Assembly: GCA_024654445.1 (NCBI GenBank)
Contig: JANLHP010000017.1
Location: 1-33,008, forward strand
Length of the DNA: 33,008 nucleotides
Direction: 5' to 3'
Source: Candidatus Curtissbacteria bacterium
Lineage (GTDB): Bacteria; Patescibacteriota; Microgenomatia; Curtissbacterales; GWA2-41-24
Positions 10,640 through 17,481 of the stretch are shown one piece after another; position 1 is the first letter of the stretch; each line of letters opens with the position of its first letter. Made by a program: the position numbers and the translations under genes. The notes below the pieces were generated by a model, which was given only the letters and a program-made list of their open reading frames with translations, made no database searches and was not told where the DNA came from.

Positions 10640-11958
10640 TTAAGAAGGTAACGAGGACGTAACAGTGCGATCTTTTATGTATAGTTGTCTTTCGAATGAC
10701 ATCACAAGATCTCTTTTTTCTTTAACAGTTCCACTGTATAAAATGTATTTCGCAAAATTTACCTCTTCTAGCGGTCTGCTGTTTGGATTAATATCTTGTT
10801 CGTAAAGTACTTCTTCCCTTATTTTTGTGTACGAATCGCTGCTTGTTTTCATTTTGTCTGCAAGCTTTAAAAAACCTGGGTGGGCTATGTTCATGAAATT
10901 GATATATCTTAGTATTTGTTTTATTAGTTTCTCCTCGTCAATGTATGGCTCTTTACAACCTCCAAGCGGTCTGGCGCAGTGGTAATACACGTGTCTTCTT
11001 GGCTCATAGACTTTCCTTTTTCTAAACCTTTCCTCGCCAATCATATTTGATTTGCATCTACCACATCTGAATAATCCCTTAAATATGATTTGTTTGGCTC
11101 CCCATTTTGACTTTGGATAAGTTGCGAGTTTTTTCTGTACCTCATCAAAAAGTGCCTGCGTAACGAACGGCTCATGCTTACCTACATACCAGATTCCGCT
11201 ATTAACTGGGTACTCGAACCTTCCTGTGTAGAATGAGTTTTTTAGTGACAGATATATCTGGCTGAGCGCGACGTGTTTTCCTTGACGGCTTTTAAAGTCA
11301 ATTTTATCGAGCCACCTTTTTATAGTTCTTCCGCTTTCCCTTTTGTAGGCAACCCTTTCGAACATTTCTTTAATAACTGGCGCTCTTTCGGGATCAACTA
11401 TTATGTCTTTTACTCCTCCAAATGCCCTATTAAAATAGCCAAGTGGCGCAACACCTGGCCGCCATCCCTGTTCGCATTTTGCCCTAATACCTCTTTTTAC
11501 GTTGATTCCTTTTTGATCGTTTTCTAGTTTTGCCTGAGAGCATAGAATCATAAGCAGGAATTTCTCGTTAGGGTTGTTGGTAAAAGTCTGGGAAAAAGTC
11601 TTAATTTGTGTAAGTTTTTCCTGATCCATCAAATCGACTAGCATTCCCAAATCTCCTGCATTTCGACTCAGTTGTCGGGAGCCCAGGTTAAAATTCCGGT
11701 AAACATACCAGATCTGATATCCGTCAGTATTTGATTGAAAACTGGCCTTTGTCCTGACATCTTGGCCGAGTGGCTCTCCTGCCTTATTTCCTTTATGAAA
11801 AGCCCTTCACGAATTGCCAGGTCGTTCATCTCTTTGATTTGGGAATCAATAGACATTGTCTGGCGTTCGTCTGACTCGCTGCTTTTTCTCGAATACAGGC
11901 AATATTCTGTTTGTGGTATTTGGTTTAAAGGTAGGGTCGGTAACGCCGTATTGTCCAT
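10640..11958 (-). pseudogene. Large serine recombinase, broken by a single-base frameshift
   Basis: Two frames together give one recombinase of about 439 aa. The 5' part (11958-11668) is the resolvase domain, with YCLYSRKSSES (catalytic Ser in the RKS motif), SIDSQ and GQRPVFNQIL, ending TWAPDN then TGA. In the frame one base away the sequence continues LSRNAGDLGMLVDLMDQ, the expected next block, followed by the recombinase domain (GYFNRAFGG through YTGRFEYP) and a zinc ribbon (CGRC, then YYHC and GGC), stopping at 10640. One base is missing at about 11671-11673, between D and LSR of the D-x-LSRN motif. No other stop interrupts 337 downstream codons, so the lesion is recent, a sequence error, or a recoding site. 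Such enzymes integrate and excise mobile DNA. Confidence 0.85.
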
Positions 11959-11977: not shown

Positions 11978-12010
11978 GCATGGGCTGTGGAAGTCTAGCC
12001 AGGGGAATTT

Positions 12011-12688
12011 TTATAGTCGCTCAGTAAGTTCTTTATAAGCAGTAATAATAAAAGGCATCTGTGGCGTAATTGTTTCCATATCCACTCCAACTAAAGGATT
12101 ATGTGCGGAAGCGTCACCGAGAAATTTTATACCCTGTATTTTTTGAGCAGTCTTAGGCGTTAGAATTGGAACCCCTCGAATTTTCTCTACAGCAGCAACA
12201 TTCAACATCTTCTCGAGTCCAACTAGGCCTCCAGGGGAATTTTTATCTTCAATTTTTGCCCCGATATTATTTCTTGCGAAAACAATATAAACCAACTTTT
12301 CCAAAATTTTTCTTAAAAGGAATGCTGTGCATGTTCCACTATTGCCAAAGTTCAAATTAAGATCTTTAAGTTCTACTCTGAAATCTTTTTTTAATTTTTG
12401 CAGTACCTCTTCCGAGAAAAGGTTCTGTTTCACGGATTCAATTTTCTCGCTTGTTGCACTTATTTTCTGAATGTATTTGAAAGCCAACCTTTTCCCTTTA
12501 CGAATTAAAAATGGAGATTTTGTAAGTGCTTTACTAAGATCTGACGGGGAGAAATTATGATTCCATTCCTTTTTAATTTGGTCCGCAACAACCGATAATG
12601 CGCGCTCCTCATTGAAGAAGCCCTTAATCCATAGCAGTTTTATTGCCCCAGTTGCGCTATTAGTGTCTGCATCATTTTCTTTTTGCAT
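12011..12688 (-). CDS. Winged-helix-like protein fused to a HEPN/DUF4145-like domain
   Basis: 225 aa. Residues about 15-77 (LLWIKGFFNEERALSVVADQ through RLAFKYIQ) follow the same pattern as the winged-helix-like module of the three upstream proteins. Residues about 110-225 resemble DUF4145/HEPN-type helical domains: AFLLRKILEKLVYIVF, then a long linker and KFLGDASAHNPLVGVD. The catalytic R-x4-6-H of HEPN ribonucleases is not seen around the His, so an RNase role is doubtful and a binding or scaffolding role is possible. The start ATG overlaps the preceding gene by 17 nt, making it the last gene of a four-gene operon. It lies 52 bp upstream of the recombinase on the same strand. I do not know a described system with this layout. 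Confidence 0.6.
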   Translation of the reverse strand: MQKENDADTNSATGAIKLLWIKGFFNEERALSVVADQIKKEWNHNFSPSDLSKALTKSPFLIRKGKRLAFKYIQKISATSEKIESVKQNLFSEEVLQKLKKDFRVELKDLNLNFGNSGTCTAFLLRKILEKLVYIVFARNNIGAKIEDKNSPGGLVGLEKMLNVAAVEKIRGVPILTPKTAQKIQGIKFLGDASAHNPLVGVDMETITPQMPFIITAYKELTERL

Positions 12689-13004
12689 ATACTTTCGTTT
12701 TACCTTCTTTCATAGTTGTTAATGGCCCACTTTTTATGGATAACCTATTCAAGGTAGTCTGAATAACTTGGATACTATAGTTATACCCTTGCTCAGCCAT
12801 GGCCGTTTTAACTTGCGGTGCCGTCCGCGGTTTTTCAAAGAAATTTTTATCTATCAAAAGTAAAATTCCACCTTTAGAACCATCGTACTTCTTATTTTGA
12901 GAGTTTGTGACTTTTTCTTGGGCTATGTTATCAAACACTGCGGATTCAAGCTTTTCGAGTCTTTTTTTGATTTGCTGAATTTGTTCTAAAACTTTGTTAC
13001 CCAT
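12672..13004 (-). CDS. Small winged-helix-like protein, paralogue 3 of the island operon
   Basis: 110 aa. An N-terminal coiled-coil-like helix (KVLEQIQQIKKRLEKLESAV) and a short polar linker (about 30-42) precede a compact domain: GGILLLIDKNFFEKPRTAPQ, then a helix ending QTTLNRLSIKSG and a basic wing-like end, GKTKVYAKRK. The pattern L-x-x-L-I-x-x-x-F-F-x-x-P-[KR]-T, recognition-type helix, then K-x-x-Y-x-x-R/K matches its two upstream neighbours at 13009-13332 and 13336-13662. This suggests a DNA-binding winged helix with oligomerisation through the N-terminal helix; that is inferred from pattern, not from a recognised family. It overlaps the HEPN-like gene by 17 nt and lies 4 nt after the previous gene. 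Confidence 0.65.
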   Translation of the reverse strand: MGNKVLEQIQQIKKRLEKLESAVFDNIAQEKVTNSQNKKYDGSKGGILLLIDKNFFEKPRTAPQVKTAMAEQGYNYSIQVIQTTLNRLSIKSGPLTTMKEGKTKVYAKRK

Positions 13005-13008
13005 TAGG

Positions 13009-13332
13009 TTACTTTCTCACTACATACTCCCAGTTTTTTGTTTTTGAGTTTTTTATTCGTACCAAAACTCTTGAGCGTGTTAGATTCAGCAGTCCCATGG
13101 CAACTGTTGACTTTGGATAGTGTCTACCCATCTCTTGGAGTTTATTTATTACTGCGATGAGCGACTGAGGACTATTGAGAAAATCCTCTCCGATCAAAAT
13201 ATTCAACGCACCAACTGTCCCTTTGGTTTCTTTTTTTTGTAATTTTGGAGTAGTTGGACTCCCTGCTATTTCTGCTAGTTCGTAAACTAAAGAAACAATT
13301 TGCCTTGCGATTTCCGATGGATCTTTTTTCAT
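13009..13332 (-). CDS. Small winged-helix-like protein, paralogue 2 of the island operon
   Basis: 107 aa with the same plan as its neighbours: an N-terminal amphipathic helix (PSEIARQIVSLVYELAEIA), a Lys/Thr-rich linker (about 24-38), then VGALNILIGEDFLNSPQSL, a helical stretch ending STVAMGLLNLTRSRVLVR, and a basic end KNWEYVVRK. Relative to the other two copies, the FF pair is FL and P-[KR]-T is replaced by S-P-Q-S, so it is the most divergent copy in that loop. Gaps of 3 and 4 nt to the flanking genes mean co-translation. Function unknown; a small nucleic-acid-binding protein is the best guess. Confidence 0.65.
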   Translation of the reverse strand: MKKDPSEIARQIVSLVYELAEIAGSPTTPKLQKKETKGTVGALNILIGEDFLNSPQSLIAVINKLQEMGRHYPKSTVAMGLLNLTRSRVLVRIKNSKTKNWEYVVRK

Positions 13333-13335
13333 CTT

Positions 13336-13662
13336 TTATCTCATTTGGTATTTAAATTGTCCCTTTTCTGGCCTTTCTCTTTTTAAAGCTTTATTTTTTA
13401 TCAAACTAAGAAGCGGCTTCATAAGAGAAGTCTTTGGTTTATTTATGCCCTCCACTCGAAGCTTTTCATGGATTTCAGAAAGAGTTTTCGGCTGATCAAA
13501 AAAACCTTCTCCAATTAAGCTATGCAGGTCTCCGGCCAGTCCAGTTGATTTCTTTGAACCGGATCTTCTAGAACCACTATGCCCTGAACTTATCGAAGAT
13601 CGGAGTTCTTTTAAAAGACTTTCCAGTTGACTGATAATTGTGAGAGGATCTTTGCTACCCAT
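13336..13662 (-). CDS. Small winged-helix-like protein, paralogue 1 (first gene of the island operon)
   Basis: 108 aa. N-terminal helix (PLTIISQLESLLKELRSSI), a Ser/Gly/Arg/Lys-rich flexible linker (about 25-40), then GDLHSLIGEGFFDQPKTLSE, helix MKPLLSLIKNKALKRE, and GQFKYQMR. The core pattern recurs in the next two genes and in the N-terminal part of the HEPN-like protein, so the operon seems built from one repeated module. The start ATG (13660-13662) lies about 20 nt downstream of a very good sigma70-like promoter. No Shine-Dalgarno is obvious. Not a family I can name. Confidence 0.65.
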   Translation of the reverse strand: MGSKDPLTIISQLESLLKELRSSISSGHSGSRRSGSKKSTGLAGDLHSLIGEGFFDQPKTLSEIHEKLRVEGINKPKTSLMKPLLSLIKNKALKRERPEKGQFKYQMR

Positions 13663-13683
13663 AAGTGTTCAATTATTTTCATT

Positions 13684-13712
13684 ATTCTATTCCAAAGTAT
13701 TTAGTCTGTCAA
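13684..13712 (-). promoter_or_regulatory. Sigma70-like promoter of the winged-helix/HEPN operon
   Basis: On the minus strand a perfect -35 TTGACA (13712-13707) and a -10 TAGAAT (13689-13684) are separated by 17 bp. This is the best promoter match in the island. The predicted transcript start leaves a short leader of about 15 nt before the first ATG. Confidence 0.75.
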
Positions 13713-14102
13713 GGGGGTTTTTGCTTAGCAAAAATTAAACATTACTGTCAATAGCTCTTTTGTTTAATGTCATAATCAAAAGGAAGTTTAATGCTTCTGA
13801 GGCTATAATTAGCCTCTTTCAAGTTTACAATTTTATGTCGTTAAATATTTGATTTATTTTCACCTAAAATAATTCCAGTGCAATTGGGAGATTAAATCCG
13901 AAGAGATTACCTATATTTAACTATATCGTTGTCTTTTTTGAGACAGTCCCTTTTTATAGTGTCCCATTTGTCCCATTTAGCCTCGAAAGTGGTACACTGA
14001 GTTGTTTGAGTTATAGCGACACAAGGGGTCCTGACCGGCATGCTCAGCATTTATCTTTCCTCTGTGCAAGTGTGCATACCTTTTCTTGATATACTTTCTT
14101 AA
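13713..14102. other. Non-coding island edge
   Basis: No gene is seen in this AT-rich stretch. Contents noted: a tandem GTCCCATTT duplication near 13961-13978, two GTTTAATG copies near 13760 and 13787, and the right att-like repeat at 13976-13991. The segment after the repeat (13992-14102) leads to the membrane protein gene. No riboswitch or RNA gene is recognised. Confidence 0.4.
13976..13991 (+). repeat. Right copy of island-flanking direct repeat (att-like)
   Basis: TTTAGCCTCGAAAGTG matches the left copy at 8310-8324 apart from one inserted G. It is followed by GTACACTGAG, resembling the left flank GTAGCACTGTG. The adjacent AGTGGTACA also occurs beside the palindrome at the recombinase start (11962-11970). 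Confidence 0.4.
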
Positions 14103-14113
14103 TATAAGTACGA

Positions 14114-14689
14114 ATGGAAATACTCGGTTTACCGCTTATTATTTTTGCGAGATTAGCGTTTCCCCTCCTTATCCTTAAATTCCCACTTCTTGGTTTTCTC
14201 TGGGCAATAAATTTAGACATTGCTGACTGGCAATTTTACAACGTAGAAAACGAGCAGCAATTTGCTATTTATCAAGCTGTTGACAAAATTCTAGATGCTT
14301 ATTTTATGACTTTCGCGGCCATTGTAGCGCTTAGGTGGAAGGATAAAGTCTCTCGGAATATCGCTCTTGTTGCTTATTTTTATCGGCTAGTCGGTATTCT
14401 GATGTTTTTAATGACCCAGAAAGACTTTGTCTTTTTATTGTTTCCAAACTTTTTCGAAACGTTTTTTATTTTTTACCTTTTGTTCAGGCTTTTCGAGAAA
14501 AAGGAGGACTTATTTAACACTAAGAAGTCTTATTTTGTAATTTTGCCTCTGCTTTTTGTGCCAAAGTTGTTTCAGGAATTTACGCATATTGCAGAAGACT
14601 TCCCTCATAAGTCTTTCGTGATGGCGTTTGCTTATACGACCCTGCCTGGTCTAGCTCTACTTTGGAGACTTTCGAAGAAATTGAAATGA
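14114..14689 (+). CDS. Multi-pass membrane protein of unknown function
   Basis: 191 aa with about six hydrophobic helices (near residues 5-31, 55-75, 83-101, 105-130, 138-152 and 168-186). Conserved-looking polar residues sit at helix ends: LDIADWQ near 35, DKILDAYF near 56, and FTHIAEDFPH near 156. I do not recognise a family. A TATAAG box lies 5 nt upstream of the ATG, suggesting a very short leader. It is followed by a strong terminator at 14710-14747. It sits just outside the inferred island. Confidence 0.68.
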   Translation: MEILGLPLIIFARLAFPLLILKFPLLGFLWAINLDIADWQFYNVENEQQFAIYQAVDKILDAYFMTFAAIVALRWKDKVSRNIALVAYFYRLVGILMFLMTQKDFVFLLFPNFFETFFIFYLLFRLFEKKEDLFNTKKSYFVILPLLFVPKLFQEFTHIAEDFPHKSFVMAFAYTTLPGLALLWRLSKKLK

Positions 14690-14709
14690 AATAACACCTG
14701 CCGACACCA

Positions 14710-14747
14710 TACGAGCTTGCAAACTAGACAGTGCAAGCTCGTATTTT
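14710..14747 (+). terminator. Intrinsic terminator
   Basis: A perfect 12-bp stem, TACGAGCTTGCA (14710-14721) and TGCAAGCTCGTA (14732-14743), with a 10-nt loop, is followed by TTTT and further T-rich sequence. It ends the plus-strand membrane protein gene 20 bp after its stop. Confidence 0.88.
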
Positions 14748-14763
14748 CTACTTTTCACTTTTT

Positions 14764-15024
14764 TTAGACGTGTCGTCCGTGGCCCAAATACCTTCCTACC
14801 ATCAAAAGTAAAAGCGATCCGCCGACAGCTAGAAGGAACGAGCTTAGGTTGAATCCTGTGATTCCGACACCAAATAGCATAGCGCCAATGAGTCCACCCA
14901 CAAATGCGCCTACTATACCTAGAACTACTGCTCCTAGAATTCCTCCGTAAGAAGGCCTTGGGTCAACCATGTTCGCGATTACGCCTGCTATGATGCCAAA
15001 TAATACCCAACCAATGATACTCAT
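14764..15024 (-). CDS. GlsB/YeaQ/YmgE family small membrane protein
   Basis: 86 aa, the standard length. Three hydrophobic glycine-rich helices cover nearly the whole protein: SIIGWVLFGIIAGVIANMV, the GGILGAVVLGIVGAFVGGL block, and SSFLLAVGGSLLLLMVGRYL, ending RHV. This matches the transglycosylase-associated / GlsB family, linked to general stress response and otherwise of unclear biochemical role. A strong Shine-Dalgarno (AAAGGAGGTGAATT) precedes the ATG at 15022-15024. It is convergent with the membrane protein at 14114-14689. Confidence 0.88.
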   Translation of the reverse strand: MSIIGWVLFGIIAGVIANMVDPRPSYGGILGAVVLGIVGAFVGGLIGAMLFGVGITGFNLSSFLLAVGGSLLLLMVGRYLGHGRHV

Positions 15025-15128
15025 AATTCACCTCCTTTCAGTTATTTAAATTCTAGGTATAAAAGGTATTTTTTAAATCAAAATTATGAAAGGAATTAGT
15101 AAGAAAGTTCTGTGAATTTTTATTGTGT

Positions 15129-15157
15129 TCCTCGCCCTTTCGGGCTGCGGGACTAAA
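15129..15157. repeat. Dispersed short repeat, copy 2
   Basis: TCCTCGCC-ctttcg-GGCTGCGGG-a-CTAAA matches the module at 56-83. The GCCC/GGGC arms form a hairpin that, read on the minus strand, lies about 30 nt after the gltX stop and may mark its transcript end. Confidence 0.5.
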
Positions 15158-15186
15158 GAAAAATGAGGCTAAATGGGATGTGTTTA

Positions 15187-16434
15187 TTACTTTTTCTGCG
15201 TGAATTTTTGCAGTCTCTTTACGGTTTCGTCTTTCCCGAGTATTTCCAGTGATTCGTAAAGCGGAGGTGTCACTTCGCGGCCGGAGACGATATTTCTGAT
15301 TGCTTTTATAAGTTCAATTCTATCTACGCCCTCTTCACGAGCTGTCTCGTCTATTGCACCTTTTATGCTCTGCGCTTTCCATTCTTCTAGCTTTTCAAAT
15401 TTAACTACAGCATCTTCTAAAAATTCCGTTGCTATCGAAACAGGCAGAGGTTCTTTGGGTGGTTCAAACAAGAAATCTACAAGAAGTTTAAATTCACTAA
15501 TTTTGTTGATTCTGTCTTTTGTGATTGGGATGAGTTTTTTAGTAACTTCAGCGTCATAACCTGGAAAAGTTTTAAGAATTTTTGCGAGCAGTTCTTTGTC
15601 GGAGAGCTTCCTAATCCATTGACCATTTAGCCAGTTGAGTTTTTCTACGTTAAATATTGGGCTGTTTTTATTAAGACGTTCTAGGGAAAAAATTTTGGTG
15701 AGATCTTCGAGCGAAAAAATTTCTTTATTGTCTTTGGGTGACCAGCCAAGAAGTACCAAGAAGTTTACAAGTGCTTCAGGCAGATAACCTTCTTCCACAT
15801 ATTCCAAGACGGACTTTGCGCCTTCTCTCTTGCTGAGTTTTTTGTGGTCGTTCCCTAATATCGGTGGTACATGGACAAAATTTGGCGGCTTCCACCCTAA
15901 AGACTCGTATAGGAGCAAATGTTTTGGCGTAGAAGAAATCCATTCGTCTCCTCTTATTACATGAGATATTTTCATTTCATGATCGTCAATAACGGATGCG
16001 AAATGATATGTGGGAAACCCGTCGGATTTTATTATTATGAAATCTTCAAGAACTTTAGACGCGAATTCGACTTTGCCATGGACAACATCCTCCCAGGACA
16101 AGATTCCATCTTCGGGAACACGGACACGCCAAGCCCCTTCATCTTCATAGGCGACGTCTTTCTTCTTAAGTTCTTCCAGGTATTTTTTATAAGTATCGAC
16201 TCTTTCGGACTGCCTGTATTGCTCGTCCCAGATCAAGCCTAAAACTTTAAGACTTTCCTCTATTTTCTCTTCAGATCCTTCGACCAATCTTTTTCTGTCG
16301 GTATCTTCTATTCTTAAAATGAACTTTCCGCCTGACGCTTTTGCAAAAAGGTAGTTGTAAAGGGCTGTTCTTATGTTGCCAATATGAGGTATTCCTGTTG
16401 GCGATGGTGCGTAGCGAACGCGTACTTCGGACAT
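15187..16434 (-). CDS. gltX: Glutamate--tRNA ligase (GluRS)
   Basis: 415 aa, shorter than the usual 460-480 aa of bacterial GluRS; the shortening appears to be at the C-terminal anticodon-binding region. Class I signatures are clear: APSPTGIPHIGN with the HIGN variant at 17-20, and DHKKLSKREGAKSV near residue 200. It charges tRNA-Glu with glutamate in the cytoplasm. With tRNA-Gln in the window and no GlnRS seen, it may also mischarge tRNA-Gln for GatCAB transamidation; this is inferred from family knowledge. ATG at 16432-16434 is preceded at 6 nt by TACAAT, with TTGGGT 18 bp further up, predicting a leaderless mRNA. It is divergent from the anchored protein at 16453. Confidence 0.95.
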   Translation of the reverse strand: MSEVRVRYAPSPTGIPHIGNIRTALYNYLFAKASGGKFILRIEDTDRKRLVEGSEEKIEESLKVLGLIWDEQYRQSERVDTYKKYLEELKKKDVAYEDEGAWRVRVPEDGILSWEDVVHGKVEFASKVLEDFIIIKSDGFPTYHFASVIDDHEMKISHVIRGDEWISSTPKHLLLYESLGWKPPNFVHVPPILGNDHKKLSKREGAKSVLEYVEEGYLPEALVNFLVLLGWSPKDNKEIFSLEDLTKIFSLERLNKNSPIFNVEKLNWLNGQWIRKLSDKELLAKILKTFPGYDAEVTKKLIPITKDRINKISEFKLLVDFLFEPPKEPLPVSIATEFLEDAVVKFEKLEEWKAQSIKGAIDETAREEGVDRIELIKAIRNIVSGREVTPPLYESLEILGKDETVKRLQKFTQKK

Positions 16435-16440
16435 GCTAAA

Positions 16441-16470
16441 ATTGTATCATCGATGTCTTCTCTAACCCAA
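16441..16470 (-). promoter_or_regulatory. gltX promoter
   Basis: Minus strand TTGGGT (16470-16465), 18-bp spacer, TACAAT (16446-16441). The -10 ends exactly 6 nt before the gltX ATG. Confidence 0.6.
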
Positions 16471-17481
16471 ACAGCTATATTTTCCCATAAAGCTTTCAGG
16501 TGGGCACTGCTTACTGTTGCCGTTATTGTCTCCTTAATTGTACTTTTTATGATCGGAATGTCTTTGAAGAATTCTTTTTTTCCTTCAGCGCCTCTACCTG
16601 GAACTGTTTCATTTGGAAAAATTCCCAGGATGGATTTAACCTTAGGAATTGCCCCGACACCGGGAACTACATATCAGCTGGAGAATATTAGCGGAGACTT
16701 ACCTGCGCTTTCTCCGTTTTTTAAAGTTTTCGCAATCGCCATGCCTGAACCTTCGTTTGGGGCGCAACAAAGGATTATATCGAGTGCTTTGGGAATTGGC
16801 TTTGGTCAAACACCTCAAGACACTGGCACGTCATTAATATTTAGAGACGACGAGGATCCTTCAAAGATTTTGACCGTAGATATTTTGAGCGGTAATTTTA
16901 CTTTTGACAGTGGTTTCATGAACGACCCGAAGTTGTCGAGTTCCCGGTCAAAGGATGCCGCTTTTGCGATAGCAGAAGCTTCCAGTTTTTTTGGTCGCTG
17001 GGGCATAAGTCTTGAAGATTATCCAGAAGAGCTGGCCCAAACACGAATGCTGAGAATCGAAAACGGGGTATTGGTTGATGCTAATTCGCTTTCACAGTCA
17101 AATGTAGTTGAAGTAACTTTTAGGCCAGGGCCTATAGACAACGCGCCTGTAATTTTGTTGAGGGAAAACGATGCACCGCTCGTCGCTCTTGTTTTTGATG
17201 ACGAGGTTGTTAGGGCGAAAGTAAATATTGTTCCAGTACAAAAATATAAATTTGCAACTTATCCTCTGAAGGGAACTGCCCGGGCGTTTGAAGAATTAAA
17301 AGCAGGAAAAGCTGCTTTCAGTAAAGCTCATGCGGGAAAGATTTCCATACTTGATGTGTCGATTGGATATGTTGTTTCTCAAAATTCCCGAGATTTTTTG
17401 CAACCGGTTTATATATTTGGCGGTGTTGATGGTTTTGCCGCTTATGTACCGGCCGTTTCTAGTGAATGGCTTAAGGATTAA
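16453..17481 (+). CDS. Membrane-anchored protein of unknown function
   Basis: 342 aa from the ATG at 16453; a longer in-frame reading from 16384 would run back through the gltX start and is unlikely. One N-terminal helix (about residues 16-38) after a short polar tail, then a soluble extracytoplasmic region of about 300 aa. That region has mixed beta-rich segments: GTVSFGKIPRMDL, TYQLENISGDLP, ILTVDILSGNFTF and ISILDVSIGYVV. No family recognised and no catalytic motif visible. It may be an envelope assembly factor, which is inference from topology alone. Its 3' end overlaps the convergent carboxypeptidase gene by 11 bp. Confidence 0.72.
   Translation: MSSLTQTAIFSHKAFRWALLTVAVIVSLIVLFMIGMSLKNSFFPSAPLPGTVSFGKIPRMDLTLGIAPTPGTTYQLENISGDLPALSPFFKVFAIAMPEPSFGAQQRIISSALGIGFGQTPQDTGTSLIFRDDEDPSKILTVDILSGNFTFDSGFMNDPKLSSSRSKDAAFAIAEASSFFGRWGISLEDYPEELAQTRMLRIENGVLVDANSLSQSNVVEVTFRPGPIDNAPVILLRENDAPLVALVFDDEVVRAKVNIVPVQKYKFATYPLKGTARAFEELKAGKAAFSKAHAGKISILDVSIGYVVSQNSRDFLQPVYIFGGVDGFAAYVPAVSSEWLKD

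Follow-up and report, generated by a model that had tools for sequence, protein, structure and literature searches.

The operon, its promoter and the adjacent recombinase

The window analysed here is a 33,008-nucleotide stretch of a Candidatus Curtissbacteria genome (1.04 Mb, 97% complete) of the Patescibacteria (CPR), from a class that also includes a Ca. Gottesmanbacteria genome. Four minus-strand genes, running from 13662 to 12011, encode products of 108, 107, 110 and 225 aa in that order. The features of the locus are listed below.

13718..13734, no strand: palindrome TTTTTGCTTAGCAAAAA with 8-bp arms, just upstream of the -35 element, a candidate operator
13684..13712, minus strand: sigma-70-type promoter TTGACA-17-TAGAAT, matching 11/12 consensus bases
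13336..13662, minus strand: P0004, 108-aa predicted wHTH protein, homologous to P0003 (E 1.6e-9), clustering with L016_140 and L018_135
13009..13332, minus strand: P0003, 107-aa wHTH protein as predicted by AlphaFold2, 39% identical to L040_117
12672..13004, minus strand: P0002, 110-aa predicted wHTH protein with a short N-terminal coiled-coil-like helix, clustering with L015_113 and L040_115 (99-100% support)
12011..12688, minus strand: P0001, 225-aa fusion of a predicted wHTH (about residues 9-78) with a probable c2405/DUF4145-like HEPN domain (about 86-225), 53% identical to L015_230; its C-terminus matches that of an AbiTii protein
11668..11958, minus strand: N-terminal part of a serine recombinase (Resolvase, PF00239, E 3e-6)
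10640..11650, minus strand: C-terminal part of the serine recombinase (Recombinase, PF07508, E 2e-13; Zn ribbon, PF13408, E 9e-10)

The initial annotation had described tight gene spacing and a near-perfect promoter, and both are confirmed by the coordinates: the gaps are 3 nt (108/107-aa genes) and 4 nt (107/110-aa genes), the 110- and 225-aa genes overlap by 17 nt, and the promoter is the top site of the region, ending 21 nt upstream of the 108-aa gene. The roughly 210 bp preceding the first gene contain three short palindromes, where the window as a whole has about one in each kb; they may serve as operators for the operon. Chance ORFs were ruled out by the paralogy of the products and by homologues in other genomes. 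An exact 16-nt direct repeat, CCAGGGGAATTTTTAT, occurs at 11999-12014, at the fusion gene's stop, and within that gene at 12231-12246. The membrane protein encoded at 14114-14689 has two more paralogues in the same genome (C13 and C17:251257) and no match in 12 relatives.

The recombinase starts 52 nt downstream of the operon on the same strand, so that the reported position of the operon directly upstream of a serine recombinase stands with one refinement: the recombinase is frame-shifted and is present as two ORFs in different frames. The frame is broken at 11650-11668, while its relatives at L017, L018 and in genome G008 are single intact frames; the window copy could be a pseudogene or reflect an assembly error. 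It is the only copy in its genome at E 1e-10. Recombinases of this type occur about once per genome, yet related ones adjoin the operon in both the window and L017; at L018 the recombinase is separated by 5 kb and intervening housekeeping genes and was not counted as adjacent. The nearest relative of the window recombinase (G008; L055:9114-14650), 53% identical, adjoins genes for Fic and for a primase-helicase of the AEP-TOTE type (E 3e-70), surroundings that possibly represent a small defence-carrying element.

Domains of the four proteins

Sequence comparison indicates that all four window proteins carry one homologous wHTH module. A search of the genome with P0004 recovered P0003 (33% identity, E 1.6e-9) and P0002 (27%, E 1.1e-3), while in a 30-sequence set the N-terminal region of P0001 matched L040_117, L025_205 and L017_224 with E-values between 5e-5 and 6e-4. 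A module profile recovers all four window modules, which are themselves among its seed rows. The AlphaFold2 model of P0003 is a winged helix (pLDDT >90 over residues 40-107) with the H1-S1-H2-H3-S2-S3 arrangement of the wHTH fold, and matches the wHTHs of Fur, MarR and MecI with a Foldseek probability of 1.00 but an E-value of 3.5e-3 at best. For P0001 the helices of the same fold are modelled over residues 11-57 at pLDDT 73-85, the remainder of the model being poor. The repeated winged-helix-like module proposed by the initial annotation is thus borne out by significant mutual matches and by the predicted fold of P0003, and a common fold is predicted wherever the models are good.

The closest solved-structure sequence match of the module is the penicillinase repressor BlaI (1p6r, E 8e-4, 15-row module profile against the PDB). 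In contrast to BlaI/MecI systems, the window operon has no BlaR1-type sensor and its proteins fall under the Pfam family cut-off; for Penicillinase_R the best E-value among module members was 0.13. DpnI was absent among the top Foldseek fold matches listed, and the PDB profile search likewise led to BlaI and not to DpnI. No family in Pfam, NCBIfam, PADLOC or PHROGs was matched above cut-off by any of the four proteins, and PADLOC models gave zero matches to them even at E 1.

The C-terminal domain of P0001 is probably HEPN-like and, among DUF4145-like HEPN domains, appears nearest to the c2405-type branch linked to AbiTii. Its match is to the C-terminus of one AbiTii protein, L026_315, with 23% identity over 123 aa (E 3.6e-4 by profile in G445 and 3e-5 by blastp in the 30-sequence set). 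This 315-aa protein of another Patescibacterium matches PF18864 at E 5e-36, and its C-terminus was called c2405 from the AbiTii fusion and a His-without-Arg motif rather than from comparison with the original c2405 set. The c2405 family consists of DUF4145-like HEPN domains, with the His kept and the Arg missing, fused to AbiTii (Anantharaman et al., PMC3710099). Both P0001 and L026_315 keep D-x-A-x-H and lack the HEPN Arg; in P0001, H196 sits in GDASAHN and R-x4-6-H is absent from the entire protein. Because this Arg is missing, RNase activity of P0001 is doubtful and its identity as a canonical HEPN RNase, which the domain probably is not, was rejected as unsupported. The R-x4-6-H motif is intact in L017_224, L025_205 and L018_259, unlike P0001. 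The proposed HEPN/DUF4145-like fusion is supported, with a probable c2405-type affinity as a refinement; DUF4145 itself (PF13643) stays below its curated Pfam cut-off (13.8 versus 23.1 bits; E 0.06). P0001 has no match to the N-terminal AbiTii domain (PF18864), carrying the wHTH there instead, or to Ymh (PF09509), for which a profile comparison was likewise negative, and the AlphaFold2 model of its C-terminus was too poor to give a usable structure. The AbiTii protein is encoded (L026:8557-9504) within a type I-like restriction-modification (R-M) gene group.

Related loci, paralogue lineages and gene neighbourhoods

Profile searches covered 374 genomes of the host's class and, in a second, overlapping draw, 380 genomes from the phylum. 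Among the 374, the window genome and four more had clear module matches, as did a further four of the 380 (about 1%), so that eight other Patescibacteria genomes among the several hundred scanned contain the module. Weak matches in G343, G115, G294, G361 and G043 were left uncounted; that in G343 proved to be a BlaI-type repressor of the ordinary kind, encoded next to an M56-like gene. Such an operon was not found in G420, G442 or G476, and profiles from two other small-protein types (A9 and A10) recovered almost nothing new. The judged loci outside the window are as follows.

L015 (Ca. Gottesmanbacteria), 14492-16476: proteins of 141, 185, 113 and 230 aa, the 113- and 230-aa ones being homologous to the 110- and 225-aa proteins of the window operon
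L016: 158 and 140 aa plus a PLD protein
L017: 274 aa plus wHTH-Ymh, flanked by a recombinase gene and a terminase gene
L018: five small genes plus a 259-aa HEPN-like protein
L025: small-wHTH-type protein plus wHTH-Ymh
L040: 117, 115, 71 and 104 aa plus a 261-aa HEPN-like protein
L042: 133 aa plus wHTH-PLD

At 8/8 judgeable loci (the window, L015-L018, L025, L040 and L042) a HEPN-like or PLD gene comes after one or more small wHTH genes, the HEPN call being weak for the L018 and L040 effectors; a ninth locus, L041, ends at a contig edge and was left out of the judged set. Conservation extends to gene pairs: the 107-110 pair of the window matches 117-115 in L040, where a 17-nt overlap is also present, and the 110-225 pair matches 113-230 in L015, again with a 17-nt overlap when counted from the aligned Met. 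Homologues are thus found grouped in L015 and L040, contrary to the possibility that they never occur together. The L015 operon is embedded in a cluster of ribosomal-protein and fusA genes.

In module trees the 110-aa type clusters with L015_113 and L040_115 with supports of 100/98 and 99/99. Because this type groups across genomes, the paralogues predate these loci, and local tandem duplication is ruled out. The effector-linked wHTH modules form one clade at 93/97, which falls to 66/88 once two long rows are dropped; a single clade of such modules is therefore suggested by the trees. The effector types found across the relatives are c2405-like HEPN, Ymh HEPN, another HEPN-like domain and PLD nuclease. 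Among the relatives' effectors there are matches to PADLOC PD-Lambda-3_B (down to E 1e-16), Aga_HEPN and PDC-S05 (down to 2e-23). The firm case of effector swapping is that of L025 (Ymh) and L042 (PLD): the N-terminal wHTHs of L025_205 and L042_222 are 42% identical over 60 aa (E 1e-10) and form sister rows (96/95), and their C-termini are unrelated.

Genes of R-M systems lie beside or near four loci: NgoBV and a C5 MTase at L025; Tsp45I, an Eco57I MTase and a SIR2-like gene at L040; and Eco57I MTases near L042 and, 7 kb off, L017. Nine Eco57I matches occur in total in 26 related genomes, and the presence of this MTase near 3/9 loci is far above a random expectation roughly estimated at ~1% per locus. 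L016 adjoins RhuM. No defence gene flanks the window copy, and L015 has ribosomal genes around it and no defence neighbour. These neighbourhood patterns are correlations from nine loci, a small sample. The initial annotation had left a defence role as inference; it gains comparative support from the swapped effectors, the R-M neighbours and the AbiTii link.

Viral contigs, phages and plasmids contained no related genes except a distant HEPN-like homologue of L040_261, an archaeal protein with an R-x6-H motif (E 2e-3) encoded on Natronomonas plasmid PL131 (L046:3980-4852). No longer repeats were found upstream of the L015 and L040 operons, and in the comparison for an empty integration site the flanking genes were not syntenic in relatives. 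Such a layout was not found in text searches of open-access papers, preprints and subscription papers being largely outside their scope. The wHTH module and the gene layout are new to the libraries tested; the effectors fall in defence families that are already known, as is effector swapping.

A possible conflict module and its alternatives

Several described systems share parts of this organization. AbiTii proteins with a C-terminal c2405 HEPN domain (PMC3710099) resemble P0001 in a homologous C-terminal domain with D-x-A-x-H and no Arg, in the logic of a small N-terminal module joined to an effector and, at L026, in R-M surroundings; the window differs from them in lacking the AbiTii domain and in having an N-terminal wHTH and three further wHTH genes in the operon. 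The terminal effectors of L017 and L025 belong to the Ymh/TIGR02391 HEPN group (PADLOC PD-Lambda-3_B, Aga_HEPN) with R-x4-H intact, whereas the window effector is not Ymh and the published descriptions consulted do not include tandem wHTH genes. AbiJ-NTD-type proteins (PMC3710099) likewise join one N-terminal module to varied effectors (HEPN, PLD, REase), but theirs is a different N-terminal domain in single proteins rather than a multi-gene set. Winged-helix–nuclease fusions of the DpnI/HhiV4I type (PMC11037411), PLD included, differ from the window in that it has no sequence match to the DpnI winged helix, separate adaptor genes and a HEPN-like effector.

We put at roughly 0.5 the probability that this operon represents a small, mobile Patescibacteria conflict module, either for phage defence or of the toxin-antitoxin type, whose wHTH adaptors govern an exchangeable effector. 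This reading draws on the pairing of wHTH and HEPN-like or PLD genes at every judgeable locus, the effector swap and PADLOC matches of the relatives' effectors, the AbiTii-like C-terminus of P0001 (as in c2405 HEPN domains; PMC3710099), the R-M neighbours and cross-genome paralogue lineages, and the proximity of the G008 recombinase to Fic and TOTE conflict genes. The modules are homologous and one of them has a confidently predicted wHTH fold, their partnership with an effector gene is kept, effectors are swapped, and R-M and recombinase genes lie close by. Counted against a conflict module are the lack of defence neighbours in the window, the missing HEPN Arg, the frame-shifted recombinase, the position of L015 among ribosomal genes, the small number of loci and the weaker support (66/88) of the effector-linked clade. 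Under such a model the three wHTH proteins, distinct from one another and oligomerising through N-terminal helices, would bind DNA and/or each other to form an adaptor complex, on which P0001 would dock through its wHTH of the same family, bringing the effector domain. At rest the complex would repress its own promoter and hold the effector quiet; a disturbance of the complex, by foreign nucleic acid or by an attack directed at it, would release the effector, which would act on nucleic acids so that growth or the invader is stopped.

The same genes could instead form a multi-antitoxin toxin-antitoxin module that mainly stabilises a small recombinase element, the wHTHs being autoregulating antitoxins and the HEPN fusion a toxin with no antiviral role. 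The operon's own strong promoter and candidate operator palindromes, the adjacent recombinase, the HEPN and PLD effectors and the conflict genes carried by the same recombinase lineage in G008 would all fit; three to five antitoxin-like genes per effector would be unusual, however, the effector itself carries a wHTH, and four loci lie in or near R-M gene groups and not on a recombinase element alone. We place this explanation on the unlikely side. We regard as distinctly less probable a cassette of transcription factors that governs the recombinase or excision of the element, in which the HEPN-like domain would serve dimerisation or ligand binding and have no effector activity. Resemblance of the fold to Fur/MarR/BlaI-type regulators, the downstream recombinase on the same strand and a possibly non-catalytic His-only HEPN domain agree with it, yet most homologous loci lack an adjacent recombinase and the exchange of terminal domains with Ymh and PLD types is a better fit to effectors than to ligand sensors. 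Very improbable, finally, is a reader of DNA modification whose wHTHs sense methylated DNA, like the winged helices of DpnI and of winged-helix–nuclease type IV enzymes, and direct the effector: wHTH-PLD and wHTH-HEPN relatives do adjoin methyltransferases, and winged-helix fusions to PLD and other nucleases are reported to be 6mA-dependent (PMC11037411), but both the solved-structure profile search, which gave BlaI, and the fold matches listed point away from DpnI.

Returning to the conflict module, a more specific form can be proposed only tentatively: a modular immune system, so far in Patescibacteria, in which non-identical wHTH adaptors recognise invading DNA and license a swappable HEPN/PLD effector, often with its own wHTH. 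The His-only effector of P0001 raises the question of the role of AbiTii-linked HEPN domains. Recurrence of distinct adaptor lineages together with interchangeable effectors is a pattern seen in conflict systems and, if this reading is true, would give bacteria of very small genome size a further defence or toxin module.
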